Source: Rhodobacteraceae bacterium REDSEA-S34_B6
Lineage (GTDB): Bacteria; Pseudomonadota; Alphaproteobacteria; Rhodobacterales; Rhodobacteraceae
Assembly: GCA_001627925.1 (NCBI GenBank)
Contig: LUQC01000014.1
Span: 42,177-83,470 of the forward strand
DNA: 41,294 bases
Direction: 5' to 3'
Positions within the stretch are counted from its first letter, which is position 1. Every line of letters starts with the position of its first letter. A program made the translations under genes and the position numbers. Below are positions 2-41,293 of the stretch, piece after piece. The notes under the pieces were generated by a model. It was not told the DNA's origin. It saw only the letters and a list, made by a program, of their open reading frames with translations, and did not search any database.

Positions 2-1027
2 GAAAAAATTGGTGATCGTCGTGCGATAATTTTAGGAGGATTTACATACGCTTTTGGACTTCTTTTATCATCCGCAGCAGTGACCCCTCAAGCTCATCAA
101 ATTTACGAAATTTTAGTTGGTTTCGGTGTTGCCGGCACCGGTTTTGGAGTAATCCTGGCAGTTGTTGGGCGCGCTAGTTCTGAGCAAAATAGATCTATGT
201 CACTAGCAATCGCGACCGCTTCTGGAAGCGCTGGGCAAGTACTTGGCGCACCGATTGGAGAATTGCTTTTAAATTACATGCCATGGCAATCTGTTTTTCT
301 AATATTCTCTATTACTATTTTATCAACCCTACTTTTACTTCCTTTCATGCGAGTTTCTGTAGCGGATACCCAAAGACATGTAACGCAAAGTATGAGGGAT
401 CTGGTCGGAAAAGCAGTAGTCGACCCAAGTTACTCAATGATATTTCTAGGATTTTTTAGTTGTGGTTATCAATTAGGTTTCCTCACTGCACACTTTCCAG
501 CTTTTGTTACCGAAATGTGCAACCCAATACTACCTACAACAGCAATATACAATTTAGGAATAACTTCTACCTCTGCGCTAGGTGCTATATCCATTTCGTT
601 AATTGGACTGGCAAATATTGCGGGTACCCTTGGCGCTGGATACCTCGGCAAAACATATTCTAAGAAGTACCTTTTATCATCCATATACTTTGGACGTACT
701 ATGGTCTGTACGGTATTTATATTAGCGCCAATCACACCGATATCAGTTGTGTTGTTTTCGCTCCTGATGGGTTCATTGTGGCTTGCTACTGTTCCTCTAA
801 CAAGTGGGCTGATTGCTCAAATTTATGGACTGCGTTACATGGGAACGCTTTATGGTATTGTATTTTTTTCACATCAACTTGGAGGCTTCATGGGAATATG
901 GCTTGGAGGCAGACTATATGATGTTTATGGGAACTATAATCTTGTCTGGTGGATAGGGATAGCTGTTGGCGCATTTAGCGCTCTTGTACATTTGCCCATA
1001 AGAGAACAGCAGAAATCTTGGGTCTAG
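2..1027 (+). CDS. MFS transporter, 5' end cut off by the window edge
   Basis: C-terminal part of a major facilitator superfamily permease in the inner membrane. The reading frame is open from base 2, so the start and first helices lie outside the window. The first visible residues, EKIGDRRAIILGG, fit the DRxGRR loop between helices 2 and 3 that marks MFS proteins, and about ten hydrophobic segments follow. It ends with TAG at 1025-1027, facing an ornithine-cyclodeaminase-like gene 30 bases away. The substrate cannot be told; the general look is that of a monocarboxylate/oxalate-formate type carrier, which is only an impression. The internal GTG at 80 is not a credible start because the conserved loop lies before it. 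Confidence 0.85.
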   Translation, partial: EKIGDRRAIILGGFTYAFGLLLSSAAVTPQAHQIYEILVGFGVAGTGFGVILAVVGRASSEQNRSMSLAIATASGSAGQVLGAPIGELLLNYMPWQSVFLIFSITILSTLLLLPFMRVSVADTQRHVTQSMRDLVGKAVVDPSYSMIFLGFFSCGYQLGFLTAHFPAFVTEMCNPILPTTAIYNLGITSTSALGAISISLIGLANIAGTLGAGYLGKTYSKKYLLSSIYFGRTMVCTVFILAPITPISVVLFSLLMGSLWLATVPLTSGLIAQIYGLRYMGTLYGIVFFSHQLGGFMGIWLGGRLYDVYGNYNLVWWIGIAVGAFSALVHLPIREQQKSWV

Positions 1028-4007: not shown

Positions 4008-4622
4008 ATGAGTAAAGAAAAAATAAATAAGGGACGGAAATATCAACAAGTTATTTCAGGCGCTCGATCTATTTTTTTGAGCGAGGGTTTTGAAGCTGCA
4101 AATATGGATGTAATTGCACAAACCGCAAAAGTAAGTAAGGCCACTCTTTATAGTTACTTTCCGGACAAACAGAGCTTATTTATTGAGGTCGCTAAGTCAG
4201 AGTGTGAAAGCCAAGCTGACAATGCGCTCAAAATAATTGATCAAACACAAAGTGTTGATAAGGTTTTACATCAAGCAGCAGCTTATACAATTCACTGGCT
4301 GGTTTCAGATATAGCACAACAAATTTTTCGAATTTGCGTTTCCGAAATCGAACGATTCCCAATTTTAGGGAAAAGTTTTTATGAAAATGGTCCCTTGATG
4401 GGCCAATCTAAACTTATCGAGTATTTCAAATATGCAGAGCAACAAGGTTGTTTGAAAATAAGTGATCTGTACCTGGCAGCAGATCAGTTTACGGAGTTGT
4501 GTAAAGCCGACCTTTACACAAAAGCACTATTTGGAATTCAACAAAAATTTACCGATGCCGAGATTAATCGTGTTGCAGATGGCGTTGTGCAAGTTTTTTT
4601 GGCTAAATACGGACAGCACTAG
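4008..4622 (+). CDS. TetR/AcrR family transcriptional regulator
   Basis: One-component repressor-type regulator, 204 residues, the usual TetR length. The N-terminal helix-turn-helix lies at about residues 33-52 (MDVIAQTAKVSKATLYSYFP), followed by DKQSLFIEV, the standard start of helix 4. The C-terminal ligand domain resembles the AefR-like group (RICVSEIERFPILGKSFYENG). The ligand is unknown. The gene is divergent from the AEC permease and convergent with frmA, whose stop lies only seven bases away. The nearby permease, and less likely formaldehyde metabolism, are the natural candidate targets. No transcription terminator is visible between it and frmA. Confidence 0.9.
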   Translation: MSKEKINKGRKYQQVISGARSIFLSEGFEAANMDVIAQTAKVSKATLYSYFPDKQSLFIEVAKSECESQADNALKIIDQTQSVDKVLHQAAAYTIHWLVSDIAQQIFRICVSEIERFPILGKSFYENGPLMGQSKLIEYFKYAEQQGCLKISDLYLAADQFTELCKADLYTKALFGIQQKFTDAEINRVADGVVQVFLAKYGQH

Positions 4623-4629
4623 TCTATAA

Positions 4630-5742
4630 CTAGTACACGACGACGGATCTGATGCTTTCTCCAGCATGCATCAAATCGAAACCTTTGTTAATTTCTTCAA
4701 GCCCAAAAGTGTGAGTAATCATCGGATCGATCTCGATTTTTCCGTCCATATACCAGTCCACAATTTTTGGAACATCTGTGCGACCGCGTGCCCCTCCAAA
4801 GGCTGTTCCCTTCCATACTCGACCTGTAACAAGCTGAAATGGGCGAGTAGAAATTTCCGCTCCTGCAGGGGCTACTCCAATTATTATACTTTCACCCCAA
4901 CCTTTGTGAGCACTTTCTAACGCTGCTCGCATTACCTCAACATTACCAGTGGCATCAAACGTATAATCTGCACCACCTTTCGTTATATTTACTAAATGTT
5001 GAACCAGATCCCCAGAAACTTCGTTTGGATTCACATAATCCGTCATACCGAATTTTTTCGCCATTTTTGATTTCTGCGGGTTTAGGTCAACTCCCACAAT
5101 TTGATCAGCACCTGCTAACCTAAGTCCTTGTATCACGTTAAGGCCAATGCCTCCCAACCCGAAAACAATGGTCCGACTTCCAATTTCAACTTTGGCTGTA
5201 TTAATAACAGCACCAATTCCAGTCGTTACACCACAACCAATATAGCAAACTTTATCAAACGGTGCCTTTGAATTAATCTTAGCCAAAGCGATCTCAGGTA
5301 AAACGGTGAAATTAGAAAAGGTCGAGCAGCCCATATAATGTAGAATTGGAGTACCATCCAACATACTAAACCGAGTAGTTCCGTCTGGCATTAAGCCTCG
5401 TCCTTGAGTTTCTCTAATGGCTTGACAAAGATTTGTTTTGGGATGGAGACAATATTCACACTGCCTGCATTCGGGAGTATATAGCGGGATTACATGGTCT
5501 CCAACTTTTAGGTCAACAACATCAGGGCCAACTTCTACAACTACACCAGCTCCTTCATGTCCTAGGATAGCCGGGAACAGTCCTTCCGGGTCAGAACCAG
5601 ACAAAGTAAATTCGTCCGTATGACATATGCCAGTAGCTTTTATCTCCACTAAAACTTCACCAGCCTTGGGCCCTTCAAGGTTGACGTCCATCACTTCCAG
5701 CGGTTTTCCAGCTTCTATTGCAACTGCAGCACGAGTTCTCAT
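4630..5742 (-). CDS. frmA: S-(hydroxymethyl)glutathione dehydrogenase (class III alcohol dehydrogenase)
   Basis: Cytosolic zinc- and NAD-dependent enzyme that oxidises S-hydroxymethylglutathione, formed from formaldehyde and glutathione, to S-formylglutathione; members also reduce S-nitrosoglutathione. At 370 residues it matches the family. Catalytic zinc ligands are visible at Cys40, His62 and Cys170, structural zinc ligands at Cys92, Cys95, Cys98 and Cys106, and the nucleotide fold at [11 protein letters not shown]. The ATG at 5742 follows a strong GGGAGGA site. FghA, encoded nearby on the same strand, takes the product. In Rhodobacter the orthologue is called adhI or flhA. Two inverted repeats upstream may be regulatory. 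Confidence 0.96.
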
Positions 5743-5775
5743 AATGTCCTCCCATTGTTATTAGTATCCTGCACA

Positions 5776-5816
5776 GCAAAAAATATTTTGCAATCAGTAT
5801 AACTCAGGGGCCCTGA
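5776..5816. promoter_or_regulatory. Pair of inverted repeats upstream of frmA
   Basis: Two perfect six-base inverted repeats lie 34 to 74 bases before the frmA start. GCAAAA-AATA-TTTTGC spans 5776-5791 and TCAGGG-G-CCCTGA spans 5804-5816. The GC-rich one stands out in AT-rich surroundings. Neither is followed by a T run in either transcription direction, so terminator function is unlikely. Placement in the frmA promoter region suggests a binding site for an unidentified regulator; this is inference. Confidence 0.35.
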
Positions 5817-5885
5817 AAAATATTGCTGTAAGTACCCATTAAAGCTTAAGCAGCGGACCAAATTGAAAATTAAATTATAACAGGT

Positions 5886-6323
5886 CTATTTTTTTATCCG
5901 ATAAGCTTTGTGACATGAACCACAAGATTGGCCTATATTCCCAAGCCCAGCTGCCAGGGTATTTGCAGAATTTGTTTCAAGACCTTCCACCATAAATGCA
6001 AAATCATCAGCCTTTTCGACAAAATCTTCCCAATTTTCCCAAATAGCTGGAGAACCTTCTGATAGTGGGTCAGTTTCATTTGATTTAAATTTAACTTCAA
6101 TATCTGCCGCGGCTAGCAATAGTGTTTGCTTTGCATTTGCTGCACTTTCTTCAGTAAATGGGTCCAATCCACGTGCCATTGCACCAATTTTCGCCATCGT
6201 ATCTTTAATTACCTTCATCAACTGCATGCGCTGCTTTACAGCATCATTTTTTACACCTTCATATGCAAAAACAGGAAATGCAAGAAAAGCTATTGATGCC
6301 AAACATATAATTTTTGTTTTCAT
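5886..6323 (-). CDS. Class II cytochrome c (cytochrome c'/c556-like)
   Basis: Periplasmic monoheme cytochrome, 145 residues. A signal peptide covers about residues 1-20 (ending FPVFA). The single heme motif CGSCH lies at residues 134-138, close to the C-terminus, which is the hallmark of class II cytochromes c with a four-helix bundle. Met33 in AVKQRMQLMK is placed where low-spin c556 types carry the axial methionine, so an electron-transfer role is more likely than the five-coordinate gas-binding c' type; this is inference. The ATG at 6323 follows GGAGAA. It precedes frmA on the same strand with a 143-base gap, and is divergent from imuB. Confidence 0.88.
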   Translation of the reverse strand: MKTKIICLASIAFLAFPVFAYEGVKNDAVKQRMQLMKVIKDTMAKIGAMARGLDPFTEESAANAKQTLLLAAADIEVKFKSNETDPLSEGSPAIWENWEDFVEKADDFAFMVEGLETNSANTLAAGLGNIGQSCGSCHKAYRIKK

Positions 6324-6419
6324 TTTTATTCTCCAGTATAAGGAATATAGCTCACTGAATATGAAAAAAAAGTATCAATCTTGATTATTAAACTGGACAA
6401 TATATCTACTATATAAATA

Positions 6420-6434
6420 GAACAAAACAAGAAC
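6420..6434. promoter_or_regulatory. LexA (SOS) box upstream of imuB
   Basis: GAAC-AAAACAA-GAAC is an exact GAAC-N7-GAAC direct repeat, the complement of GTTC-N7-GTTC, the LexA site described for alphaproteobacteria. It ends 13 bases before the imuB ATG and follows a TATAAA-like -10 element at 6412-6417, so bound LexA would block transcription. The match of site, spacing and SOS-type gene makes this a strong call. Confidence 0.85.
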
Positions 6435-6447
6435 ATTTGAGGTTAGA

Positions 6448-8097
6448 ATGTCAAGCCCAAGATACATTTCTTTATGGTTCCCATATTTTGGGGCAGAACG
6501 GGTACAACGAATTTTCAAATTCGAAAAAAATCATAAGCTCGCGATAATTGAAAATAATGGTAATACACAAACATTATCTTCCGTATCTTTCGGTGCACAT
6601 AATTCAGGATTAAATATCGGCCAGCCATTGCAAGATGCAAAAGCCATATGCCCAGAATTAATGACCCGTGTTCGATCTGTAAAATGCGAATTAACTTTTC
6701 TACACGCCTTATGTCGTTGGTATACTCAATTCACACCTTGGGTAGCAGCTGACAACTATGACGGAGTGATCCTTAACATTAAAGGTTGTGCACACTTATT
6801 TGGTGGTGAAGAAGGAATGCTTGATTTAATTGTATCTCGTACAGAAACATTCGGCTTGACCGTAACAAGTGGAGTGGCTGATACTGTAGGAGGTGCTTGG
6901 GCACTAGCTCGCTTTACTCCCAAGCCAACGGAAAGCTACCTTAAAAGTAATTCTATTGATCAAGAAGCTCGCGCAACCCGTAGCCGTGCTACAAAAAAAA
7001 TACAAATAGACGATACAAAACAGCAAGTGACGCAATTACTTAAAAATAATGCAATACGCATTGCACCAGCGGGAAATACTTATAACTCATTAGCTAAACT
7101 TCCAATTGCGTCACTGCGTATTGAAAATAAAATAGTAACTAAATTAAACCAACTTGGCTTAAAATCTGTAAAAGACCTGTTGAAACAACCAAGGGCACCT
7201 CTTGCCAGACGCTTTGGCCCTACATTGATTGCTAGATTAGACCAGGCACTAGGACATGTGCCAGAGACAATTTCACTGATTACTGAGAAAAAGCATTTTG
7301 GTGTGAGAATAAGCTTTCCAGAACCTATTGGGCTTATTGAGGATATCAAGAACGCTATAGAAAAATTGCTTATTCGTTTATGTAACAAATTAAAAACTGC
7401 TGTTTTAGGATTCCAGGAATTAAAAATTGATTTGGGTTTTAGTAATAATGAAACACAATCACTTTTGGTAAGTCTGGCATGTTTCACTAATAATCCTGAA
7501 CGTATCTTCTCTGTTTTACTGCTCAAATTAGATGAAATTAAACCAAGTTTTGGCATTGATATTATCCGACTTGAAGCAATCAATGTAGGCCCTATCACAC
7601 AATCTCAATCTATTAATAATTTGGATCTGCATGAAAAGGTAATAAAAAATCAAAATAGCGTACTTAAAAACCTAATAACGCGGCTGGGAACAAAAGTTGG
7701 ATTAGATGCAATTATCAGACACATACCAGCTCAAAGTCATATACCTGAAAAATCGTGGCAGGTTTTAAATGCAGCATGGTCAAATTATGATATGAAAAGC
7801 TGGCCAACTTCAAACCGCAATAGACCTTCATTTTTATGGGCACCGGAAGCATTAGAAGTGCCAAAACATTCAAGACTAGAAGATCATTTTATTTGGCGGA
7901 AAAAATTATACCAAGTAAAAACTAAATTGGGACCAGAACGGATTGCACCAGAATGGTGGATAGAAGATAATAATTGGCGAAGTGGAGTGCGTGATTATTG
8001 GCAGGTACGATGTAATAATGGAGAATTTTTATGGCTATTTTATGCTCATGGAGCGCAACTACCAGGAGGCTGGTTTTGCCACGGAAAATTTGGATAA
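6448..8097 (+). CDS. imuB: ImuB, inactive Y-family DNA polymerase homologue of the SOS mutasome
   Basis: ImuB bridges the beta clamp, ImuA and the error-prone polymerase DnaE2 during damage-induced mutagenesis; it has the Y-family fold but not the catalytic acidic residues. Here the first motif is ISLWFPYFGAERVQR instead of a metal-binding DxDxFFAxVE. Diagnostic segments GCAHLFGG (residues 113-120) and DQEARATRSRA (171-181) are present, as is a little-finger and C-terminal region; at 549 residues it looks complete. The ATG at 6448 follows GAGG. A LexA box lies just upstream. Unusually, neither imuA nor dnaE2 adjoins it: its neighbours are a cytochrome gene and a ureide enzyme, both on the other strand. 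Confidence 0.92.
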   Translation: MSSPRYISLWFPYFGAERVQRIFKFEKNHKLAIIENNGNTQTLSSVSFGAHNSGLNIGQPLQDAKAICPELMTRVRSVKCELTFLHALCRWYTQFTPWVAADNYDGVILNIKGCAHLFGGEEGMLDLIVSRTETFGLTVTSGVADTVGGAWALARFTPKPTESYLKSNSIDQEARATRSRATKKIQIDDTKQQVTQLLKNNAIRIAPAGNTYNSLAKLPIASLRIENKIVTKLNQLGLKSVKDLLKQPRAPLARRFGPTLIARLDQALGHVPETISLITEKKHFGVRISFPEPIGLIEDIKNAIEKLLIRLCNKLKTAVLGFQELKIDLGFSNNETQSLLVSLACFTNNPERIFSVLLLKLDEIKPSFGIDIIRLEAINVGPITQSQSINNLDLHEKVIKNQNSVLKNLITRLGTKVGLDAIIRHIPAQSHIPEKSWQVLNAAWSNYDMKSWPTSNRNRPSFLWAPEALEVPKHSRLEDHFIWRKKLYQVKTKLGPERIAPEWWIEDNNWRSGVRDYWQVRCNNGEFLWLFYAHGAQLPGGWFCHGKFG

Positions 8098-14914: not shown

Positions 14915-15091
14915 ATGGTAAACCCAAAAAAAATACCCCCAGAAGCAAAACGGGCATTAGAGGAAGCTGAAGAACGTCGAAAATCAATAAAAGACAAACC
15001 CGCTCCTAAAAAGGAGTTCGGCGGAAGAGATGGCCCAGAACCAGTTAGATTTGGAGACTGGGAACGGAAAGGTATTGCTATAGATTTTTAA
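14915..15091 (+). CDS. DUF1674 protein, SDHAF4-like succinate dehydrogenase assembly factor
   Basis: A 58-residue protein. Its C-terminal half carries the family signature: EFGGRDGPEPVRFGDWERKG followed by IAIDF at the end. In mitochondria the homologue SDHAF4 binds the flavinylated SdhA subunit before it joins SdhB; a similar role is likely here but the gene is not beside sdh genes. The N-terminal half is charged and probably flexible. The ATG at 14915 follows AGAGGGAAGAG, a strong ribosome binding site. Its last four bases overlap the convergent hemF stop. It is divergent from rsmB with 64 bases between starts. Confidence 0.88.
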   Translation: MVNPKKIPPEAKRALEEAEERRKSIKDKPAPKKEFGGRDGPEPVRFGDWERKGIAIDF

Positions 15092-15981
15092 TACCACTTT
15101 GCGAAAGGTGGCAAACTCATTAGAACGGCATTCGCGTCATGGCCAGTTGCCAGCCCAAACTTTGTTCCGCGATCATATACAAGATTATATTCAGCGTATA
15201 AGCCTCTGTGCTCCAGCTGGATATCTTTATCTCTCTCATTAAATTCATTAACCATTCGTTTTTCAAGCAGTGGAAGATATGCTGGCAAGAAAGCTTTGCC
15301 AATATCCTTAGTAAGATTGAAGTCTGCTTCCCAATCCCCAGTGTTGCGATCGTCCATGAATATACCACCCACCCCTCGGGCTCGCTTGCGGTGCGGAATG
15401 AAAAAATACTCATCAGCCCATTTTTTCAATTTGGGATAGAGTTCAGGGTCGTGCTTATTCAAGTAAGATCGAAGTGTGGAATGAAAATGAAGAGTATCTT
15501 CCTCGAATTCAATACAGGGGTTCAAATCTGAACCACCACCAAACCACCATGCATATGGCGTCCAAAACATACGAGTATTCATGTGAACCGCCGGACAATT
15601 AGGATTTCTGACGTGAGCAACTAAACTAATACCACTAGCCCAAAATTTTGGATCCTCTCGCATTTCAGGAATTCCCAAACGCTCAGCCATCGACTGTTGC
15701 GCGGCTTTATTAAGATTTCCATATACCGTTGAAACGTTGACGCCTACTTTTTCGAAAATACGCCCATTTCGCATTACACTCATTAATCCGCCGCCGGCAT
15801 CAACACCCAGCTTATCCTCTCGTTTTGTTTCGTTGACTTCAAATTTACCAGCACCGAGCTCCGAAAAAGGTCCTTTAAAATGTGACTGTTCCAACTCTTC
15901 AAAAGCAGATACGATATCGTTTCTTAAACTTAAAAACCATTCACTGGCTCTATTTTTTTCAACTTCAGTAATTTGTTTCAT
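15088..15981 (-). CDS. hemF: Oxygen-dependent coproporphyrinogen III oxidase
   Basis: Converts coproporphyrinogen III to protoporphyrinogen IX using oxygen, in heme synthesis. The conserved WWFGGGSDLNPC segment, the histidine motif DTLHFH and RGVGGIFMDD are all present, as is the C-terminal RGTKFGLATG. I start it at ATG 15981 (MKQITEVEKN), giving 297 residues, the usual length; the frame continues upstream to 16059 but those residues overlap the SDR gene and are not family-like. It is the last gene of the minus-strand run clpS > methyltransferase > SDR > hemF, 28 bases after the SDR. The aerobic enzyme implies growth with oxygen. Confidence 0.96.
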   Translation of the reverse strand: MKQITEVEKNRASEWFLSLRNDIVSAFEELEQSHFKGPFSELGAGKFEVNETKREDKLGVDAGGGLMSVMRNGRIFEKVGVNVSTVYGNLNKAAQQSMAERLGIPEMREDPKFWASGISLVAHVRNPNCPAVHMNTRMFWTPYAWWFGGGSDLNPCIEFEEDTLHFHSTLRSYLNKHDPELYPKLKKWADEYFFIPHRKRARGVGGIFMDDRNTGDWEADFNLTKDIGKAFLPAYLPLLEKRMVNEFNERDKDIQLEHRGLYAEYNLVYDRGTKFGLATGHDANAVLMSLPPFAKWY

Positions 15982-16009
15982 ATATGCTCTAATTCTTTTG
16001 ATGCTTACA

Positions 16010-16816
16010 TTAATGAAAAGGTGAAGATACGGGATCCAGAAGACACCGGCCTCCGTCAACTGTGATTATTTGACCGGTTACAAAACCAGAAGCTGGCGCA
16101 GCTAAATACTGAACAGTTTCAACTATTTCGGAAGCGGAAGCAATGCGTCCCATTGGTGTATGCGCCTCAATATCCTGTCTAAGCTCATCCGCATCCTTAA
16201 GACTATTCTGCAAGCTAGCAGACATAATTGAACCAATAGCCAGAGAATTTACTCTGATACGGCTAGGAGCAAGTGAAACCGCAAGAGAACGTGTCATCTG
16301 ATCCATTGCAGCCGTAGCTATTGAGTAGCCTAAAAGCCTCGGTTGAGCCAAAGTTGAGGCAATTGATGACAAATTTACAATTGTACCAATAATACCGTCA
16401 GCTTCCGTGTCTTCTTCCGACTGTTTGATCATTCTTTTAGCCACATGCTGGGATAGTCTAAAACTATTCAATACGTTTTGTTGCCACATAACAGCAATTG
16501 TTTCGTCCTCTAAATCAAGTGGATCTGTAAGCAAAACTTGCCTTGAAGCGTTAATCAGAATATCAACACGCTCGAAAGCATCTATAGTGGCAGAAAGCAA
16601 ATTAGCTATTGTCAGTCTTTCACGCAAGTCTCCAGAAAAGTAACGTACATTCCCATTCTCACATTCTTCACCTAATTCCTTCTTTAGACTTTTATCATCC
16701 ATATCAGCGAACATGACGTGCGCACCCTCCTCGGCAAAGTGCTTCGCTATTGCCAAGCCAATACCATTAGCGGCCCCAGTTACTATGGTAGTCTTACCTT
16801 CTACAGAAAAGGACAT
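16010..16816 (-). CDS. SDR-family oxidoreductase with altered active site
   Basis: Short-chain dehydrogenase/reductase fold, 268 residues. The cofactor motif TGAANGIG (residues 13-20), the acidic ADMDD after strand 2, catalytic-type Asn114, Ser151 and Tyr164 are visible. However the YxxxK motif reads Y164-S-I-A-T168, with threonine where the catalytic lysine belongs, and NNAG reads INAS. The C-terminus (TPMGRIASASEIVETVQYLA, GFVTGQIITVDGG) is otherwise standard. It may be catalytically impaired, specialised or non-enzymatic. The substrate is unknown. ATG at 16816 follows GGGAGAAG. It lies between a methyltransferase gene and hemF, with 27- and 28-base gaps. Confidence 0.85.
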   Translation of the reverse strand: MSFSVEGKTTIVTGAANGIGLAIAKHFAEEGAHVMFADMDDKSLKKELGEECENGNVRYFSGDLRERLTIANLLSATIDAFERVDILINASRQVLLTDPLDLEDETIAVMWQQNVLNSFRLSQHVAKRMIKQSEEDTEADGIIGTIVNLSSIASTLAQPRLLGYSIATAAMDQMTRSLAVSLAPSRIRVNSLAIGSIMSASLQNSLKDADELRQDIEAHTPMGRIASASEIVETVQYLAAPASGFVTGQIITVDGGRCLLDPVSSPFH

Positions 16817-16843
16817 TTCTTCTCCCCTATAAGTTTCGTAAGT

Positions 16844-17851
16844 TTAGGTTTTTTTTCTCGATACTGCGAGAGGTTTTTCAGCCAGAAATATTTTAAACCT
16901 ATTATCTCCCCCAATTTCTTTCGAATTACCAAAATATCTGCAAAGTATATTTTCGTAGGGAAGGTGCCTATTTGAAACCATATATAACTTACCATTCCTC
17001 AGAAGGTTTTTTGCAGCAGAAATTATAAATCCCTCACCAAGCTCAATGTCTACCTTACCATTTGAGTGGAAAGGGGGATTCATGACAACGAAATCCAAAG
17101 GTTTTGGCGCTCTCCATTGCTGAACATCGTCCCAAACGAATTCAACTTTAGATGTATTACAATTTTTTACCGCGCATTCTAATGCCCGTTTTGAGGTATC
17201 TATTGCAAAAATATTATCAACTAACTCTAAGTTTTCCAAAAAATTTGTCAGGAAACCCCAACCAGCACCAAAATCAGCACCAGAACCATTTAAATTTTGG
17301 GGTAATTGATCTTTCAATAACTTAGACCCTGGATCAACATGATCCGAAGAAAAAACACCTGATAAGGTTACAAACTCATTATTAATTTTATTAAATTTAT
17401 TAGGGTGCCAAGTTGAAGGCAGATTTCCGCTAGCCGTTCTGTAAACTGCTATTTTGCCATGTGCTTTAGAAAGGTTTACCTCAAAGGAAATTTTTTTTTG
17501 GAGTTCTTTTATAATAGAAACAATACCATCGTTTTTGTCTCCATCTATAACGACATATCCTTTGTTAGCAATTGTGGAGCCCAAAAGTATTAACTCTTTC
17601 GCAAGCTCTTTCGACTTTGGCAGAAGAATTATCGAAACATCAGTTAAGAAATTTACGTCTGATTTACAGTTGTAGCCTGCATCCGACAGAGGAGAATAAA
17701 GTCTTATATCGTCAGTTAAAACAACCGTATTCTTATTGCTGAAGTAATCTAAATCGGTTAAATCTTGTGGGTTGATAAAACAGATTGTTTTATTTAAAGT
17801 AAAAAGATCTGGAAGGATATCTTTTAAAACAGATAAACGCTTAACAAACAT
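16844..17851 (-). CDS. RsmC/RlmG-like class I methyltransferase
   Basis: SAM-dependent methyltransferase of 335 residues with two similar halves, the layout of RsmC and RlmG, which make m2G in 16S and 23S rRNA. The C-terminal half holds the SAM-binding GADFGAGWGFLTNFL and the N6/N2-type catalytic motif DFVVMNPPFH. The N-terminal half lacks the catalytic motif, as in RsmC. Which rRNA base it modifies cannot be told; RsmC-like is my preferred reading. It is in the clpS-to-hemF run, 31 bases after clpS, with a weak ribosome binding site before ATG 17851. Confidence 0.85.
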   Translation of the reverse strand: MFVKRLSVLKDILPDLFTLNKTICFINPQDLTDLDYFSNKNTVVLTDDIRLYSPLSDAGYNCKSDVNFLTDVSIILLPKSKELAKELILLGSTIANKGYVVIDGDKNDGIVSIIKELQKKISFEVNLSKAHGKIAVYRTASGNLPSTWHPNKFNKINNEFVTLSGVFSSDHVDPGSKLLKDQLPQNLNGSGADFGAGWGFLTNFLENLELVDNIFAIDTSKRALECAVKNCNTSKVEFVWDDVQQWRAPKPLDFVVMNPPFHSNGKVDIELGEGFIISAAKNLLRNGKLYMVSNRHLPYENILCRYFGNSKEIGGDNRFKIFLAEKPLAVSRKKT

Positions 17852-17882
17852 ACATAATTCTTGTTAGTATACCTTGTCAAAA

Positions 17883-18221
17883 TTACTCTTTCTCCATTGT
17901 GCATTGTAATGGATGTTGATGGCGCCTAGAAAAATCCATCACCTGAGCAACTTTTGTTTCTGCTATTTCATGACTAAAAATTCCCACAACAGCCATTCCT
18001 TTTTTGTGAACTGTCAACATGATCTCAAATGCTTGAGTATGATTCTTACCAAAAAATCGCTCTAAGACTACAACTACAAATTCCATTGGAGTGTAGTCGT
18101 CATTTAATAGTAGGACTTTGTACAACGGTGGACGCTTTGTCTTAGTGCGAGTTTCCAGCGCTACACCTTGTTCGCCATCCTGATCAAACTCACCTGACAT
18201 TTGGTGGGGAACAACCGGCAT
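17883..18221 (-). CDS. clpS: ATP-dependent Clp protease adapter ClpS
   Basis: Adapter that delivers N-degron substrates to ClpAP. It has 112 residues: a flexible N-terminal tail followed by the core, opening [17 protein letters not shown] with the [10 protein letters not shown] pocket that reads N-terminal bulky residues, then [12 protein letters not shown] and the closing [12 protein letters not shown]. The start ATG at 18221 is weakly supported; a second ATG at 18200 is possible. clpA is not in this window. It is first in the minus-strand run and divergent from the DD-carboxypeptidase across a 306-base gap. Confidence 0.95.
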
Positions 18222-18527
18222 TTTATCTCAACGTGTTATTATTTATCAATTTGTTATATAATGTAGCTGTGTAACTTGAAAAGACCCTTACAAGCCATAC
18301 CAAAAATAAATTACAATAATCGGTAAGTCGGTCAATTTATTCAAGAACTTTAATACAATAATATTTATCTAGTATATCGAATGTATATTGCTACCATATA
18401 TTGTGCTCAAATGCTTTAGTGGGACAAAAAGTAAGTGAAATTAAGACTTTATTTGACAAAGTTCGCTTAATATTGTTGATTGTTCGACAATAATCTGACC
18501 AGAAAACTGGCAGAATGAGGCAGGAAA
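18222..18527. other. 306-base intergenic region between clpS and the DD-carboxypeptidase gene
   Basis: The only gene gap above 300 bases. It must hold divergent promoters. For the plus-strand gene, TTGACA at 18453-18458 is a consensus -35 box, but the -10 at 17-base spacing (TTGATT, 18476-18481) is poor. For clpS, a TATAAC -10 reads leftwards around 18258-18263 with a weak -35. A short palindrome ATTGT-TCG-ACAAT lies at about 18479-18491. I see no RNA gene, repeat or coding frame in it. Confidence 0.4.
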
Positions 18528-19946
18528 TTGGTAGTTAATATTACGAAACGGCTTTTAAAGTCCGCTTGGTTAGGCATATTCATTATACTATTTGTTTCAA
18601 TGGTAGTGCTAGCATCACAGCCAGCAATGGCAGTCACTTATGCTGCAATGGTTATGGATGCGCGCGATGGTAGCGTTTTACATACTGAAAATGCAGACCA
18701 AAGATTACATCCAGCATCATTAACTAAAATGATGACATTATATGTCGCATTTGAAGCAGTTGAGAATGGAGAAATAAGCCTTGATACAAAAGTTAAAATT
18801 TCAAAAAAGGCGGCTTCAGAACCACCTTCTAAACTTGGCCTTAAAGCGGGTCAACGTATTAGTCTCAGATATTTAATCAGAGCCGCTGCAATCAAGTCAG
18901 CTAATGATGCTGCTACGGCTATTGGAGAAGCAATAGAGGGCAGTGAAGCGGCTTTTGCACGGCGAATGAACCGAACTGCAAAAGCACTTGGCATGAAACG
19001 AACAACCTTTAAGAATGCTCACGGTCTCACCCAGCAAGGGCATCTCTCAACTGCCAGGGATATGACAATACTTGGGAGACATGTTTTTTATGATTACCCA
19101 GAATATTATCATTTGTTTTCGCGGCGCACAGCTAATGCCGGGATTAAAAAGGTTCGTCATACGAATACCCGCTTTTTAGCAAATTACAGGGGCGCTGATG
19201 GTATTAAAACAGGGTTTACGAGTGCCGCTGGCTACACTCTTACCGCGTCTGCTGAGAGGGGAAGCGAAAGAATAATTACAACTGTATTTGGCGGAAGAAG
19301 TATTGCTACAAGAAATAGACAAGTGGCAAAATTAATGGACCTAGGTTTCAAGAAAGCACCAACGAATGTCTATTTAAGGAAACCACAGCTACCAAACTAC
19401 TCATCAACTAACTTGGACGCTAAAAAGATTAAGAGATCTTCTGGAGCAGTTAGAAAAAGTTTAGTCCCTAAACCACGACCGGGTTCAAAATCTGCAATCA
19501 TAGCATCTGTAGATCTCTCAGATGGGATCGAGAAAACCCTTGAAATGCTAATGGTAGCTTCAGAACAATCAGAAAATGTGGATACGGCACAAATTCACCT
19601 TGCAACCCTCGATGTTAAATCTTCTGATACAATATCTTCCTCAGTCACAAAAGAAACAAATATGCTGAAGCCAGCAAGGCTTGTGAGCCATAATTCATCA
19701 GATGAACACAAAGTTTGGGGTATAAATGTTGGTCGCTTTGGCACCAGATATGCAGCAGAAAAAATGCTGATCAAAACTGCACTTGCAGAAATGCCAACAT
19801 TGGGTGGTTCGTTGCGTAAAGTTGTGAAAACACAACTTGGTTTTGAAGCAAACTTTTATGGTGTTTCGCAAGTTATGGCTGAACAAGCCTGTCGCAAGTT
19901 AGCTAACCGACAAATAACGTGTGACATAATAAATCCATCTGGATAA
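18528..19946 (+). CDS. D-alanyl-D-alanine carboxypeptidase with C-terminal SPOR domain
   Basis: Low-molecular-weight penicillin-binding protein that trims the terminal D-alanine of peptidoglycan stem peptides in the periplasm. A signal peptide covers about residues 1-35 (ending AMA). Active-site motifs are S64-L-T-K67, S124-A-N126 and K227-T-G229. A long basic and Ser-rich linker leads to a SPOR domain at about residues 395-470 (VWGINVGRFGTRYAAEKML), which binds glycan strands lacking stem peptides and suggests placement at the division site. The start is apparently TTG at 18528 behind GGCAGGA; the ATG at 18514 is in another frame and stops after seven codons. 472 residues is typical for SPOR-bearing alphaproteobacterial forms. 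Confidence 0.92.
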   Translation: MVVNITKRLLKSAWLGIFIILFVSMVVLASQPAMAVTYAAMVMDARDGSVLHTENADQRLHPASLTKMMTLYVAFEAVENGEISLDTKVKISKKAASEPPSKLGLKAGQRISLRYLIRAAAIKSANDAATAIGEAIEGSEAAFARRMNRTAKALGMKRTTFKNAHGLTQQGHLSTARDMTILGRHVFYDYPEYYHLFSRRTANAGIKKVRHTNTRFLANYRGADGIKTGFTSAAGYTLTASAERGSERIITTVFGGRSIATRNRQVAKLMDLGFKKAPTNVYLRKPQLPNYSSTNLDAKKIKRSSGAVRKSLVPKPRPGSKSAIIASVDLSDGIEKTLEMLMVASEQSENVDTAQIHLATLDVKSSDTISSSVTKETNMLKPARLVSHNSSDEHKVWGINVGRFGTRYAAEKMLIKTALAEMPTLGGSLRKVVKTQLGFEANFYGVSQVMAEQACRKLANRQITCDIINPSG

Positions 19947-19992
19947 ATCTAAATGCTGGCTAACATTTACACTAAAGCGATACTAAAAGTTT

Positions 19993-21573
19993 TTAATGAA
20001 CCGATTTTAGCAAGTTTTTCGTATAAGCACTTTGTGGATTAGTATAAACTTGCTCTGCCCCACCCGTTTCAACAATATTCCCATCTTTCATAACAATAAT
20101 ACGGTGTGACATTGACCTTATAACTTTCAGGTCGTGGCTTATAAAAATATATGCAATTTTATGTTTTTTTTGTAGAGCCTTAAGCAAATCAACAATTTGA
20201 ACTTGTACGGTTCTGTCTAAGGCTGAGGTGGGTTCATCCAAAACTACTAATTTTGGCTTCAAAGCCATAGCTCTGGCAATTGCTATGCGTTGTCTTTGAC
20301 CGCCAGAGAATTCATGGGGATAACGATGCCTTGTTTTAGGATCTAAGCCAACTTCTAACATTGCTTCTGAGACCAAATTTTCGGTGTCTTGCAAAGATGT
20401 AGGAAAGTGAACTTTCACACCCTCTAATATTATTTGCTCACAAGTCATTCGAGGCGATAATGACCCATACGGATCTTGAAAAACGATCTGAATATCTTTT
20501 CTTAATTTTCTGAGGTCTTTTAGAGATAATTCATTTAAATTCCGACCATTAAAATAAACTGAACCTTCATATTTAATTAAGCGCATCAATGCGAGGGCAA
20601 GCGTAGACTTGCCAGATCCACTCTCACCAACGACACCTATAGTCTCTCCCTCTCTAACAGTTAAATTAGCCTCATTAACCGCTTTCACAAAACCTACTGT
20701 ACGTTTAAGAAGACCTCTTTGGATGGGAAACCAAACCTTCAGGGAGGAAACTTCAGCAACAACATCAGCTTTTTCATCCACCGGATCAGGACTGACCGAA
20801 GTATTAGCGAAAAGAAGTTTTCTGGTGTATGGATGGCTTGGTTTTTCGAAAACCTCTGATACCAAACCGTCTTCAACGATTTTTCCATTTTTCATTACAC
20901 AAACTCGGTTTGCTAATCTTTTTACTAGCCCAAGATCGTTCGTAATAAAAAGAATTCCCATCTCGGTATCTTTTCTCAATTCAACAAGCAAATCTAATAT
21001 TTGAGACTCAATAGTGACATCCAGCGCCGTTGTTGGCTCATCCGCAATCAAAATTTTTGGGTTATTTGCGAGTGCCATAGCGATCATTACACGCTGACGT
21101 TGACCGCCCGATAGCTGGTGGGGGTAAGCACTCAGCCTTTGTCTCGGTCTATCTATACCGACTCGCGTCAACAACTCAAGAATATACTCGCTAATGTTAC
21201 TAAAATACGCAGCACTATGCAGTTCAACCGCTTCACGCAGTTGCTTTTCAATGGTGTGAAGTGGATTCAAAGATGTCATAGGCTCCTGAAAAATAAAACT
21301 GACTTCACTACCACGAACACTTTTGAGTTCTTTATGGCTAATGCCTAGTAATTCAATGCCTTGAAGTTTAATCGAGCCAGAAACATCCGCATTATTTGGC
21401 AGCAGCGAAAGTATTGAGAGGGCCGAAACTGATTTACCAGACCCACTTTCTCCAACTAAGGCTACGACTTCTCCCTTGTTAATTTCAAAATCAATCCCAT
21501 CGACAGCAATAACCTCTGATCCATCACTCTGAAATTTAACCCCAAGATTATTTACAGATAATAGACAGGTCAT
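19993..21573 (-). CDS. yejF: Microcin C/oligopeptide ABC transporter, double ATPase YejF
   Basis: ATP-binding subunit of a Yej-type peptide importer. The 526 residues carry two complete nucleotide-binding domains: Walker A GESGSGKS at 41-48 and again near residue 315, signature motifs LSGGQRQR and FSGGQRQR, and Walker B ILIADEPTT and LVVLDEPTS. It energises the YejB/YejE permease pair. The ATG at 21573 overlaps the yejE stop by four bases (ATGA), implying coupled translation. Last gene of the yejABEF run; convergent with the DD-carboxypeptidase gene. Confidence 0.95.
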   Translation of the reverse strand: MTCLLSVNNLGVKFQSDGSEVIAVDGIDFEINKGEVVALVGESGSGKSVSALSILSLLPNNADVSGSIKLQGIELLGISHKELKSVRGSEVSFIFQEPMTSLNPLHTIEKQLREAVELHSAAYFSNISEYILELLTRVGIDRPRQRLSAYPHQLSGGQRQRVMIAMALANNPKILIADEPTTALDVTIESQILDLLVELRKDTEMGILFITNDLGLVKRLANRVCVMKNGKIVEDGLVSEVFEKPSHPYTRKLLFANTSVSPDPVDEKADVVAEVSSLKVWFPIQRGLLKRTVGFVKAVNEANLTVREGETIGVVGESGSGKSTLALALMRLIKYEGSVYFNGRNLNELSLKDLRKLRKDIQIVFQDPYGSLSPRMTCEQIILEGVKVHFPTSLQDTENLVSEAMLEVGLDPKTRHRYPHEFSGGQRQRIAIARAMALKPKLVVLDEPTSALDRTVQVQIVDLLKALQKKHKIAYIFISHDLKVIRSMSHRIIVMKDGNIVETGGAEQVYTNPQSAYTKNLLKSVH

Positions 21574-22553
21574 TTGAAGGTCTTCCTAGGATCAAAAGCG
21601 TCGCGAATACCCTCAAAAATAAAAACAAGCAGTGCCAACATTATTGCAAATGTAAAAAAAGCAGTAAAGCCTAACCATGGAGCCTGAAGGTTTTGTTTTG
21701 CTTGCAAAGTCAACTCTCCCAAAGACGGAGCAGAGGCAGGCAATCCAAAACCCAAAAAATCCAATGAAGCTAGAGTAGCAATTGTCCCAGTAACAATAAA
21801 AGGCATTAGAACTACGCCAACCAGACCCATCCAACCGAAAAGAACTGTAAGCAAAACAAGCAACCAAAAACTTCTACCCAAAATAGCAAATAATATTATG
21901 ATTACGTATAAGGAAGGCACAGCGCCCCAAATCTCTATAAATCTCTGGAAAAACAAATCTGTTCGTCCTCCAAAATATCCTTGAACAGCGCCTGCAAGAA
22001 TACCCAAAAGACTTGAAGCTATTGTGACTAACAAAGTAAACATTATTGATATACGGAATCCATAAATTACACGAGCCAGAACATCTCTCTTTACATCATC
22101 CGTCCCTAATATATTTGATTTACTGGGGGGCAATGGTGCCGCTCCAGGAATATCAACAGATGTGTCAAAAGAGTATGGGATTAAGGGCCAAATAATCCAA
22201 CCACGATGGAACTCTAAGTTTTCAAACTTATCTAACTTTATAGCATCTACTATATCTTCAGGTTTCTCAAAACAGTCACTAAGACCACCGGAAAGAATTA
22301 AGCACTCTACTTCTACCTCTTTGTAAGCTGCCTCTGTTTTAAAATCTCCACCAAACCTAACCTCAGGATAGAATGTAAAGATGGGCATATGTATTTCACC
22401 TCTATAACTGACAAAAACTGGCTTATCATTGGCAATAAATTCAGCAAAAAGAGACAGAGTAAATAAACCAGAGAAGATAATCAGTGACCAAAATGCCCTA
22501 TTGTTGGATCTAAAGCTTCGCCATCTTCGTTTTGTAATTGGTGAGCCTAGCAA
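21570..22553 (-). CDS. yejE: Yej-type peptide ABC permease YejE, apparently lacking the EAA loop
   Basis: Second inner-membrane permease of the Yej peptide importer. The N-terminal half, with a long periplasmic segment after helix 1 and the LGTDDVKRDVLARVIYGFRIS motif, is normal, and so is the end (SLDFLGFGLPASAPSLGEL to FEGIRDAFDP). Between WMGLVGVV (to residue 248) and LMPFIVTGTIATLASLDF the family normally has about 40 residues, including the cytoplasmic EAA motif (AARALGV...ILPNA) that docks on the ATPase. These are missing with the frame kept, leaving 327 residues. The start is TTG at 22553 behind GGAGGG, three bases after yejB. It may be non-functional, or reflect an assembly error. Confidence 0.9.
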   Translation of the reverse strand: MLGSPITKRRWRSFRSNNRAFWSLIIFSGLFTLSLFAEFIANDKPVFVSYRGEIHMPIFTFYPEVRFGGDFKTEAAYKEVEVECLILSGGLSDCFEKPEDIVDAIKLDKFENLEFHRGWIIWPLIPYSFDTSVDIPGAAPLPPSKSNILGTDDVKRDVLARVIYGFRISIMFTLLVTIASSLLGILAGAVQGYFGGRTDLFFQRFIEIWGAVPSLYVIIILFAILGRSFWLLVLLTVLFGWMGLVGVVLMPFIVTGTIATLASLDFLGFGLPASAPSLGELTLQAKQNLQAPWLGFTAFFTFAIMLALLVFIFEGIRDAFDPRKTFK

Positions 22554-22556
22554 ACG

Positions 22557-23639
22557 CTAACCCTCCCTGATTTCAAAATCAATGCGGGGATCTATAAACA
22601 CGTACATTAAGTCAGAAATTATACCGACCACTAGCCCCATCAGACCAAATATAAAAAGTGTTCCAAATATTACTGGATAATCACGTGCAATAGCAGCCTC
22701 GAAACCCATCCTACCGAGACCGTCGAGTGAAAAAATAGTTTCAATTATGAGGGAACCTGTAAAAAAAACACCTATGAAAACAGCCGGAAATCCAGCTATT
22801 ACAATTAACATAGCGTTACGGAAAACATGCCCGTAAAGTACGCGTTTTTCACTGACACCCTTGGATCTGGCTGTTATCACATAATTCTTCTGAATTTCAT
22901 CCAAGAAGCTATTCTTTGTCAAAAGAGTTAAGGTTGCAAAAGCTGAAATTGATGATGCTAAAACCGGTAAAGAAATATGCCAAAGATAATCTATAACTTT
23001 CGAAAATAGCCCAAGCTCAGAAAAATTTTCAGATGTGAGGCCTCTAAGGGGGAAAATCTGAAAATATGACCCACCAGCAAATAAAACTAACAACAAAATT
23101 GCAAACAAGAAGCCTGGAATTGCATACGCAAGAACTATAAGCACACTGGTCCAAGTATCAAATTTAGAACCATCGCGGACGGCTTTTCTGATCCCAAGTG
23201 GTATTGACACCATGTAAGCGATCAATGTTGACCAAAGACCTAGTGAGATGGATACCGGCATCTTCTCAATGACCAAGTCAATCACTGATATCGACCTGAA
23301 ATAACTTTCACCAAAATCCAAGCGGAGATAATTCCACATCATAAACAAAAACCGAGTAAGGGGTGGCTTATCAAAACCAAACTCTTTTTCTAATTCTGCT
23401 ATGAACTCTGGTGGTAGGCCCCTGGCACCAGTATACTTTTCATCCTGTTCAAAGTTTTGAGCAACTTCGTTACCACCCCCAGCAATACCTTCAAAAACAT
23501 CGCCATTTCCCTCATAGTTTGCAATTATTTGCTCTATTGGGCCACCTGGTACAAATTGGGTGAGCGCAAAATTTATCACCATAATCCCAAACAAGGTTGG
23601 GATTACCAGCAATAAACGACGCATAAGATATGCTGTCAT
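22557..23639 (-). CDS. yejB: Microcin C/oligopeptide ABC permease YejB
   Basis: Inner-membrane permease of the Yej importer, 360 residues. It begins [28 protein letters not shown]-like, the common first helix of DppB-type permeases, and has about six helices with a large periplasmic loop after helix 1 (PGGPIEQII onward). Its EAA loop is intact: [23 protein letters not shown]. The start ATG at 23639 lies six bases after the yejA stop. It pairs with YejE, whose own EAA loop is missing here. Confidence 0.95.
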
Positions 23640-23645
23640 CTTAAT

Positions 23646-25544
23646 TTATTGGCGCAGAAAACCAGCATCTTTTAATGCTTTTGCCTTACCTTCATTGTAC
23701 CACCAATAGTCCAAGTATCCCAAGTCATAAGGTGCAATTTCTTCTGGATGTTCATACATATCCCAGTAAGCCACGCGATGCTGATCGTTATACCATTGGG
23801 GTATCCAAAAATTGTAAGCTCTAAGTGTCCTGTCAAGAGCTTTGACTGCCACTTTTAAATCACTTTTGTTTTCAGCTGCAACCACATGCTCAATAAGCGT
23901 ATCAACAGCTGAGGATTTCAGACCCATTGAATTAAACACGGAATCATCAGCTGTCTCAGACCCAAAGTACTGTTTCAGCCCGGAGGAGGGTTCATATGAC
24001 ATTGGGAATTGATCAGTTATAATATCGAAGTCATAGTTACGAGTTCGATCTGTATACTGAGCAGGGTCTATTCTATCATATTCAGCATCGATCCCAGCTG
24101 CTTTCATATTTTCAACGAAGGGCAGTACGATCCTATCAAATGCGGCGCTGTCCTCAATTATTTCGATTTTCAAAGTATCACCGCTAGCATTTCTACGAAG
24201 ACCATCTGCACCAACAGGCCAACCAGCATCATCTAATAAAGCATTTGCTTTGCGGAGATTGGATCGGTCCATTGGCTTTGTTCCAGATACCGGAGCCATA
24301 ATTGCATCCTGCGTGAGTACGCCGCTTGGCAAATCACTTTCCAACGGTGATAAAAGCATCATTTCCTCACTAGAGGGGAGTCCAGTGGCCGCCAAATCTG
24401 AATTTTCCCAAAATGAATTAATTCTAGCATATTGCCCGTAGAACAAAGACTCACGGGACCATTCAAAGTTAAATAGATAAGATAAAGCCTTTCTCACCCG
24501 AATATCAGAAAATTTTTCCCTTCGGAGATTCATGACAAAGCTTTGCCCGTTTGCTATACCTCCATCCGGCATTAGTTTTTTTACCACATGCCCATCGTTC
24601 AATGCTGGAAAATCATATGCGGTAGCCCAACTTTTTGATGAGTTTTCAACCCGCATCGTGTAAGCCCCCGACTTAAATGCTTCAAATGCCGCATTAGTAT
24701 CCGCAAAATATTCAACTCTGATCTCATCAAAATTTGATCGACCCCTATTTATTGGTAGACTTGCGCCCCAATATTCAGGATTTCGTCGATATTTTACCCA
24801 ACGATTTATTTCGAAGCTATCTAGAACATACGGACCTGATCCGACTGCTGGCTCCATTCGAGACTCGTCAAGCCGAGCCTGACTTCTTTCAAACCAAGCT
24901 TGTGATTTAACCGGCAAACCACCAACGATTGGTATCGCGTCTCTTTTCGATGCTTGGTCTGAAAATATGTACTTGATGGTATAGGGACCAATAACTTCAA
25001 CGCCTTGAACTATTTCAGCCAGAACAGCCCTGTAGCTAGGCAACCCCTGTTCGAGGAAGAGGTTATAAGTAAATGCTACATCGTCTGCAGTAACAGGAGT
25101 TCCATCCGAAAACTGTGCCTCTTTGCGAAGTTTGAAAATTACCCATTTTTGATCTGCCGGGTACTCAATGCTTTCAGCAAGTAGCCCATATGAAGATCCA
25201 ATTTCATCGCCCGTCTCAACAAGGAGTGACTCGAATGGAGCAGATGATAGAGACGCAGCTCGTCCCTTCCTTGAGTAAGGGTTCATCGAGTCAAAAGTAC
25301 CAAAACCCCATATTGATATTTCACCACCTTTTGGCGCATTCGGATTCACGTAGTCTAAATGCTGAAAATCATTTGGATATTTCAGCTCTCCAAAAAAATT
25401 AAACCCATGTGCTTTTATAGTGTGTTGATCTGCATTCAGAACAGATGCAGTAGATACCAATAACACAAAAAAGATCAAACAAACAAATGCGATCAATCGA
25501 TTTCTTATTTCAACTAAATAATTTATTTGCAACAATTCTAACAT
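23646..25544 (-). CDS. yejA: Periplasmic peptide-binding protein YejA
   Basis: Extracellular solute-binding protein family 5 subunit of the Yej importer, 632 residues. A hydrophobic signal segment lies at about residues 14-38. The mature part shows the family landmarks YVNPNAPKGGEISIWGFGTFDSMNPYS-like N-terminus, FSDGTPVTADDVAFTYN and the RVRKALSYLFNFEW motif. Characterised relatives carry microcin C and oligopeptides. The ATG at 25544 follows AAAAGGGG. It heads the run yejA > yejB > yejE > yejF, with gaps of six and three bases and a four-base overlap. A palindrome ACCAT-ACTC-ATGGT at 25590-25603 lies in its promoter region. Confidence 0.94.
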   Translation of the reverse strand: MLELLQINYLVEIRNRLIAFVCLIFFVLLVSTASVLNADQHTIKAHGFNFFGELKYPNDFQHLDYVNPNAPKGGEISIWGFGTFDSMNPYSRKGRAASLSSAPFESLLVETGDEIGSSYGLLAESIEYPADQKWVIFKLRKEAQFSDGTPVTADDVAFTYNLFLEQGLPSYRAVLAEIVQGVEVIGPYTIKYIFSDQASKRDAIPIVGGLPVKSQAWFERSQARLDESRMEPAVGSGPYVLDSFEINRWVKYRRNPEYWGASLPINRGRSNFDEIRVEYFADTNAAFEAFKSGAYTMRVENSSKSWATAYDFPALNDGHVVKKLMPDGGIANGQSFVMNLRREKFSDIRVRKALSYLFNFEWSRESLFYGQYARINSFWENSDLAATGLPSSEEMMLLSPLESDLPSGVLTQDAIMAPVSGTKPMDRSNLRKANALLDDAGWPVGADGLRRNASGDTLKIEIIEDSAAFDRIVLPFVENMKAAGIDAEYDRIDPAQYTDRTRNYDFDIITDQFPMSYEPSSGLKQYFGSETADDSVFNSMGLKSSAVDTLIEHVVAAENKSDLKVAVKALDRTLRAYNFWIPQWYNDQHRVAYWDMYEHPEEIAPYDLGYLDYWWYNEGKAKALKDAGFLRQ

Positions 25545-25666
25545 AACAGACCCCTTTTAATAACATATGTAAGATTGAGGCGGATTTTGACCATACTCAT
25601 GGTGGTTTTTATTGACAGTTATAGTAATTACTTAGCATTAATAATCATGCTACTTTTGTGTCGCCT

Positions 25667-26188
25667 TTACTTTTCCACACTGTCCAAGTAGGCAATCAAA
25701 TTCGCTCGGTCATCTGGCTTTTTGAGCCCTGCAAAGCCCATTTTAGTACCGGGCGCGTATGTTTTAGGATTTTCCAAAAATCCATTCAAGCTATCAATAT
25801 CCCAAACTTCTGCAACCTTTATCAAAGCTCCAGAATAATTATAGTCACTCACAGAGGCAACCTCACGATCAACAATAGCGTAAAGGTGAGGTCCTGTTGC
25901 ATTTGCACCGTCCTCTAGCTTATGACATGCCTTACATTTACCCCAAACTTTTGCGCCTTTAGATACATCTGCGACTTCCATCAAACCAGCAAAGTCAATT
26001 TCTTCTTCGGGTTCATCAACAATTTCTTCTTCCTCAACTTCTATAGCATAGCCATAAGCATGTTTTTCTCCGTGCCCATGACCGCCCACATGATAAAAGC
26101 TTTCGGCAGCCCAACTACCAAGGAGATAGATTAAAAGGGCACCACAAAAGCCACCAATTATCTTTGTGAAAGTCATTGTATCAAGCAT
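25667..26188 (-). CDS. Membrane-anchored class I cytochrome c (CycM/cy-like)
   Basis: Electron carrier of 173 residues. Residues 9-27 form one uncleaved membrane helix, followed by a His/Gly-rich patch (33-43), an acidic stretch rich in Glu (50-64), and a class I cytochrome domain with heme motif CKACH at 85-89 and the Met ligand in GTKM at 150. This layout resembles CycM and cytochrome cy, tethered carriers between the bc1 complex and terminal oxidases; the His-rich and acidic linker may let the heme domain swing. It is divergent from pheA. The start may be ATG 26188 or the second ATG four codons on. Confidence 0.9.
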   Translation of the reverse strand: MLDTMTFTKIIGGFCGALLIYLLGSWAAESFYHVGGHGHGEKHAYGYAIEVEEEEIVDEPEEEIDFAGLMEVADVSKGAKVWGKCKACHKLEDGANATGPHLYAIVDREVASVSDYNYSGALIKVAEVWDIDSLNGFLENPKTYAPGTKMGFAGLKKPDDRANLIAYLDSVEK

Positions 26189-40930: not shown

Positions 40931-41293
40931 TCATTTAAGTGCTTCAGTTAAGCTCATACCGTTTACTGTGCTTCTAAACCACCTCTTTAGAATGGCCCTC
41001 TCATGATCCTCCATGTAAGTTACATTGGCTGGAGGCATTGCATGAGAAATAGCAGAGTGAAGGTATATTAATTTAGCATTTTTGGTTATGTCATATGTGG
41101 TTTCTAAGTAAACCTTACCAGGTGCCCAATTAATCCCATCCCACACTGGCTGTCTCGCATGGCACATCGAGCACCTACCTAAAACAATTTCCTTCGTTTG
41201 CGAGAATCCTTCTGCTTTTTCGAACGCTTCTTGTTTCTTACTCATCAAAGAGAGTTCCTGCTTATCTGAACTTAATGAAGGCGCCATCGATAA
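40931..41293 (-). CDS. puuD: Urate hydroxylase PuuD, C-terminal cytochrome c domain (5' part outside window)
   Basis: The frame stays open to the window edge, so at least 121 C-terminal residues of a longer protein are seen. They hold a heme motif CSMCH followed by ARQPVWDGINWAPGKVYLET, and HAMPPANVTYM carrying the probable Met ligand, matching the cytochrome c domain fused behind the membrane domain of PuuD. PuuD oxidises urate to 5-hydroxyisourate, passing electrons to cytochrome c. The in-frame ATG at 41287 is probably internal. Convergent with dapA. With the ureidoglycine aminohydrolase it points to purine degradation. A stand-alone small cytochrome is the alternative reading. Confidence 0.82.
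   Translation of the reverse strand, partial: LSMAPSLSSDKQELSLMSKKQEAFEKAEGFSQTKEIVLGRCSMCHARQPVWDGINWAPGKVYLETTYDITKNAKLIYLHSAISHAMPPANVTYMEDHERAILKRWFRSTVNGMSLTEALK

Follow-up and report, generated by a model that had tools for sequence, protein, structure and literature searches.

The yej locus and the gap in yejE

The window, i.e., the whole stretch of 41,294 nucleotides analyzed here, carries the genes of a YejABEF peptide importer, with yejE placed as in the operon order yejA-yejB-yejE-yejF (Table 1). Below, G000 denotes the assembly to which the window belongs, C18 its contig, and G006 a sister genome that is colinear with the window at 95.4% identity. The window begins directly after a run of 11 N (C18:42166-42176) inside a transporter gene of 410 aa in G006, and the frame at window positions 80-1027 is only part of this gene.

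Table 1 Features of the yej locus (positions in the window)
Feature	Position	Strand	Evidence
yejF, double ATPase, full length in the G006 alignment	19993..21573	-	NF011713, 701.9 bits, below the cut-off of 834
yejE, permease of the YejABEF importer, 327 aa as assembled, without 41 codons	21570..22553	-	ORF; NF011596 is the best NCBIfam match; gap relative to relatives
Blunt junction in yejE, 123 nt absent, no N, 0 nt slide relative to G006	21810..21811 (= C18:63987)	-	Alignments
yejB, partner permease, intact	22557..23639	-	NF011712, 536.7 bits, above the cut-off of 445
yejA, substrate-binding protein of the operon	23646..25544	-	SBP_bac_5, E 9e-67; closest solved structures are 7z8e and entries named YejA

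The yejE frame starts with TTG and has the limits given in the original prediction, which had claimed that about 40 residues, including the EAA coupling loop, are gone in frame around 21803-21813. This description is correct. Nucleotide alignment with four genes of the same genus reveals a single in-frame gap, which measures exactly 123 nt (41 codons) and has its junction inside codon 248 (between GT and T). The absent residues run from RAEFLRARN through NAMVATLT and comprise the EAA/coupling region together with the beginning of the membrane helix that follows. Hence, the cytoplasmic EAA/coupling loop between TM4 and TM5 is absent from the assembled YejE sequence. With NF011596 (microcin C ABC permease), assembled YejE scores 305.4 bits against a curated cut-off of 439; an intact relative of the same genus is also below it, at 400 bits. 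The gap alone is compatible with DNA that is missing from the organism or from the assembly only.

Conservation of the missing segment

The alignment was extended to related loci, as the original prediction had proposed. In all 113 of them, G006 included, the flanks are separated by exactly 123 nt, with the segment kept (29 loci plus the best 80 of 584 candidates plus 4, with at least one gene counted twice). A natural absence of the segment in this clade was thus rejected. The segment is among the strongly conserved parts of the YejE family. Among the 15 other genomes of the genus that were searched, all 12 with a yejE match carry the codons, the result that the original prediction had named as its refutation. 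No yejE match was found, at the limit used, in G008, G013, and G014, which are 53-69% complete.

The junction itself was also used as a query. Among the matches listed from 394 genomes of the family, the whole 41-aa junction peptide is present at 100% in G000 only. Partial matches among those listed, running across the junction, cover nearly the whole peptide in G328, G363, and G364 at 51-56% and residues 1-32 in G007 at 59%; the loci of these four genomes all hold the 123-nt segment. Relocation of the segment was rejected as well, as no other place in the G000 assembly encodes a close copy of the missing peptide (best match, 36% identity). A search of viral contigs did not return the exact 36-base junction, which says little, and a plasmid search by protein returned only relatives below 60% identity.

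Selection on yejE and its neighbors

Relative to G006, dN/dS is 0.12 for yejE, 0.13 for yejF (525 codons aligned), 0.02 for yejB, and 0.09 for yejA, and it ranges from 0 to 0.30 across the ORFs of the window. The yejE branch of G000 carries 8 replacements and 15 silent changes, that of G006 3 and 14 (Fisher p 0.30), and these counts give no clear sign of relaxed selection. Under a majority-of-outgroups rule, 7 and 3 replacements remain, and residues 122-327 are free of the 7 on the G000 branch. A functional gene and a very recent loss would both give this pattern of substitutions.

Silent divergence in the window is uneven. At positions 4008-8097 and 15088-26188, it varies between genes from about 0.03 to 0.37 relative to G006 and, in neighboring genes, from about 0.25 to more than 1 relative to G012, which suggests patchy recombination. 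The last ORF of the window (40931-41287, at the contig end) has 23 replacements on its own branch and 3 on that of G006; recombination, or a contig end rich in errors, may account for this excess.

Unmarked gaps in the assembly

The G000 assembly comprises 2.41 Mb in 111 contigs and is 95.5% complete and 3.1% contaminated. In three of these contigs (C18, C5, and C27), 270,548 bases were aligned with the one sister G006 and all gaps were counted. G000 has 11 deletions of at least 13 nt that have no N close by; G006 has 0. The sizes of the 11 gaps are 127, 144, 68, 47, 34, 13, 24, 87, 34, 93, and 123 nt, the last being the gap in yejE. Their breakpoints slide by 0-1 nt, and once by 3 nt (at the 24-nt gap). 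Eight lie inside ORFs (called by a mechanical rule, minimum 100 codons); five of these shift the frame and three keep it, which is about what chance would give, as the keeping of frame is a one-in-three event. Among the frameshifted genes are uvrA (gap at C5:17732), gatB (C5:107779), pntA (C5:97200), and the gene of an AcsV-like activase, each of which is split into two frames in G000. A sarcosine-oxidase/GcvT-like gene and an RND transporter gene are likewise broken in this assembly. For at least two of the 11, a natural origin is possible: one gap lies in a tandem repeat of GACCAGA, and another, the 24-nt gap, is intergenic; both were kept in the count.

Short indels between the two genomes behave normally: those of 1-12 nt occur in similar numbers on both sides (G000, 33; G006, 27), and of the 49 that measure 1-2 nt, 45 are located outside ORFs. 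For comparison, we aligned G012, G003, and G010 with G006, at 80-84% identity and free of N (39,996, 21,831, and 13,361 bases, respectively). These 75,188 bases hold zero coding indels of at least 13 nt and a single 13-nt indel outside ORFs.

The assembly also contains marked joins. At C18:1-42176, there is a single N at position 13364 in place of about 161 bases that G006 has inside the RND transporter gene, and for the 11-N run just before the window, G006 has about 41 bases. C5 and C27 have one N run each, of 78 and 19.

Origin of the gap in yejE

Taking these observations together, we consider that the 123-nt gap stems from a fault of the draft assembly rather than from the organism itself, with a probability of about 0.88. 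The assembly has a one-sided, frame-blind excess of unmarked gaps. Natural indels are expected to be symmetric between sisters, mostly short, and filtered by frame within genes; the short indels fit this expectation, but the long ones do not. We read the long gaps of G000 as assembly losses because they are one-sided, blunt, and frame-blind and break housekeeping genes. Unmarked losses and misjudged gaps do occur in draft assemblies. The yejE gap matches the other ten in size, blunt ends, and one-sidedness and, as judged from these sequence features, most likely belongs to the same class. The assembly would repeatedly have joined two stretches bluntly and without an N, dropping 13 to 144 nt each time, and in yejE one such join would happen to keep the frame. 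The organism itself would then have an ordinary full-length YejE, probably with its coupling loop, in an ordinary YejABEF importer.

Some features of the junction speak against an assembly fault. It bears no N, whereas those scaffold joins of this assembly that are definitely faulty carry at least one; there is no overlap at the junction that would explain a false join; and the gap is the sole indel of more than 12 nt inside the window. Collapse of a repeat was rejected, as there is no sequence in common between the breakpoints (0 nt slide). Nor is there support for the assembler having skipped a segment that related genomes share: among four sisters, 27% of the 123-nt windows of the gene reach or exceed the conservation of the missing one. 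The original prediction had offered a collapsed assembly as one option; the evidence favors the assembly fault in it but not a collapse on a repeat.

Alternatively, the deletion could be real and recent, inactivating YejE in all or part of the population and tolerated after an apparent earlier loss of muropeptide recycling, with the importer mattering less. The junction would allow this, being blunt, unmarked, and in frame, and a normal dN/dS permits a very recent event. A yejE deletion mutant of Brucella melitensis is described as growing without a discernible defect in the media tested in that study, as far as the available part of the report goes (PMC4994006). The genomic background, discussed in the following section, would also make the loss tolerable. 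Nevertheless, the sampled contigs of this assembly alone hold ten more unmarked gaps in this size class, frame-blind and in several cases in housekeeping genes, and yejBEF are under purifying selection between G000 and G006. We therefore regard such a loss as unlikely.

A second possibility is a real burst of genome decay, with every gap a genuine deletion and yejE just one broken gene among many. In line with this, deletions are in excess on one side only and in a single genome. However, decay should also bring frameshifts of 1-2 nt into genes, and only 2 of the 27 such indels on the G000 side are in ORFs. It should further raise dN/dS, which stays in the low range reported above for the window. 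In addition, where the amidotransferase supplies Gln- or Asn-tRNA, a frameshift in gatB would be expected to kill the cell. Decay on this scale is thus very improbable. Early decay of yejE had been among the options of the original prediction; it is possible but less likely in view of the frame-blind gaps in other genes, such as gatB and uvrA, which are absent from the sister, and of the branch counts, which give no clear relaxation.

The option of a real deletion in a transporter that still works, with an asymmetric YejBEF coupled to its ATPase through the YejB helix alone in a lineage already without muropeptide-recycling enzymes, has next to no chance of being correct: the frame, the partner genes, and the downstream helices are kept, but all 113 loci keep the segment without a change in length, the missing block takes away positions that match contact residues of DppC and, according to a weak model, the first half of the next membrane helix, and the parts of the literature on EAA loops and coupling helices available to us contain no importer working with one coupling helix. 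The originally suggested one-helix transporter thus gained no support. If a truly shortened protein proved active, the idea that every permease half requires a coupling helix of its own would come under challenge.

Muropeptide recycling in the subclade

The window belongs to a subclade that consists here of G000, G003, G006, G010, and G012 (five drafts, 70-96% complete). This subclade was compared with G001, G002, G004, G005, G007, G009, G011, and G015, in which the YejE frame is longer (373-377 codons). G008, G013, and G014 were excluded from this comparison for want of a yejE match.

With family models, none of the five subclade genomes gave a match to AmpD, NagZ, AnmK, or a second YejA-family (YepA-like) protein. 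Among the eight comparison genomes, AnmK is present in all, and an AmpD-like amidase, a NagZ-like hexosaminidase (one above the curated cut-off), and a second, unlinked YejA-family protein are present in six each. As for the excluded genomes, G014 carries AmpD and AnmK, and G008 and G013 have none of the four. AmpG gave no match in any of the 16 genomes of the genus.

With PDB 4ony, the unlinked YejA-family protein of G011 reaches 450 bits, compared with about 271 bits for entries named YejA; the operon YejA of the window scores about 413 bits with the YejA entries, 419.5 with 7z8e, and 381 with 4ony. In Agrobacterium, YejBEF together with YepA import muropeptides, and YepA is a muropeptide-binding protein encoded apart from yejABEF and 38.7% identical to YejA, according to the portion of the study available (PMC9790009). 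The unlinked protein of the comparison genomes is likewise encoded apart from yejABEF and is a putative YepA.

From these family matches, muropeptide recycling appears to have been lost in the subclade, with YejABEF retained. This apparent loss is independent of the yejE gap, and it is in its light that the loss of YejE would become tolerable. The absence of AmpD, NagZ, AnmK, and a YepA-like protein next to a retained YejABEF may merit separate work.

Comparison with known systems

DppC: DppC of the E. coli DppABCDF transporter (PDB 8z1v and others) is a solved relative of intact YejE (E 2e-30). Its coupling helix connects TM4 and TM5, and its residues D191, S196, N210, and N214 are located in the coupling helix or touch DppF, as described in the accessible part of the structural report (PMC12136057). 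When an intact relative of YejE is aligned with DppC, the residues so described all fall inside the block that is missing from assembled YejE. Hence, if the gap were real, the contact of YejE with its ATPase at the matching positions would be gone.

Structure models: AlphaFold2 was run with shallow alignments and gave poor models, with a mean pLDDT of 55.1 for assembled YejE and 61.1 for the intact relative. In the latter model, the missing residues form the end of a helix at 228-253, a helix at 256-265, and a helix at 270-288, with rough helix limits. Residues 241-300 of assembled YejE are modeled at a pLDDT of about 40, which agrees with a damaged sequence in this region and proves nothing.

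YejABEF: Compared with YejE of the YejABEF peptide/microcin C importer, the window has the same operon order, the best family match, and conserved flanks. It differs in that the assembled protein is without the 41 residues holding the EAA loop, which every one of the 113 related loci retains.

Draft assemblies: The gap shares with known losses in draft assemblies that blocks are missing from one assembly only, regardless of frame, and that runs of N on the scaffold are misjudged. It differs from them in being in frame and unmarked and hence looks biological. A blunt, unmarked, in-frame gap in a draft can therefore pass for biology, and counting similar gaps against a sister genome exposes such cases.
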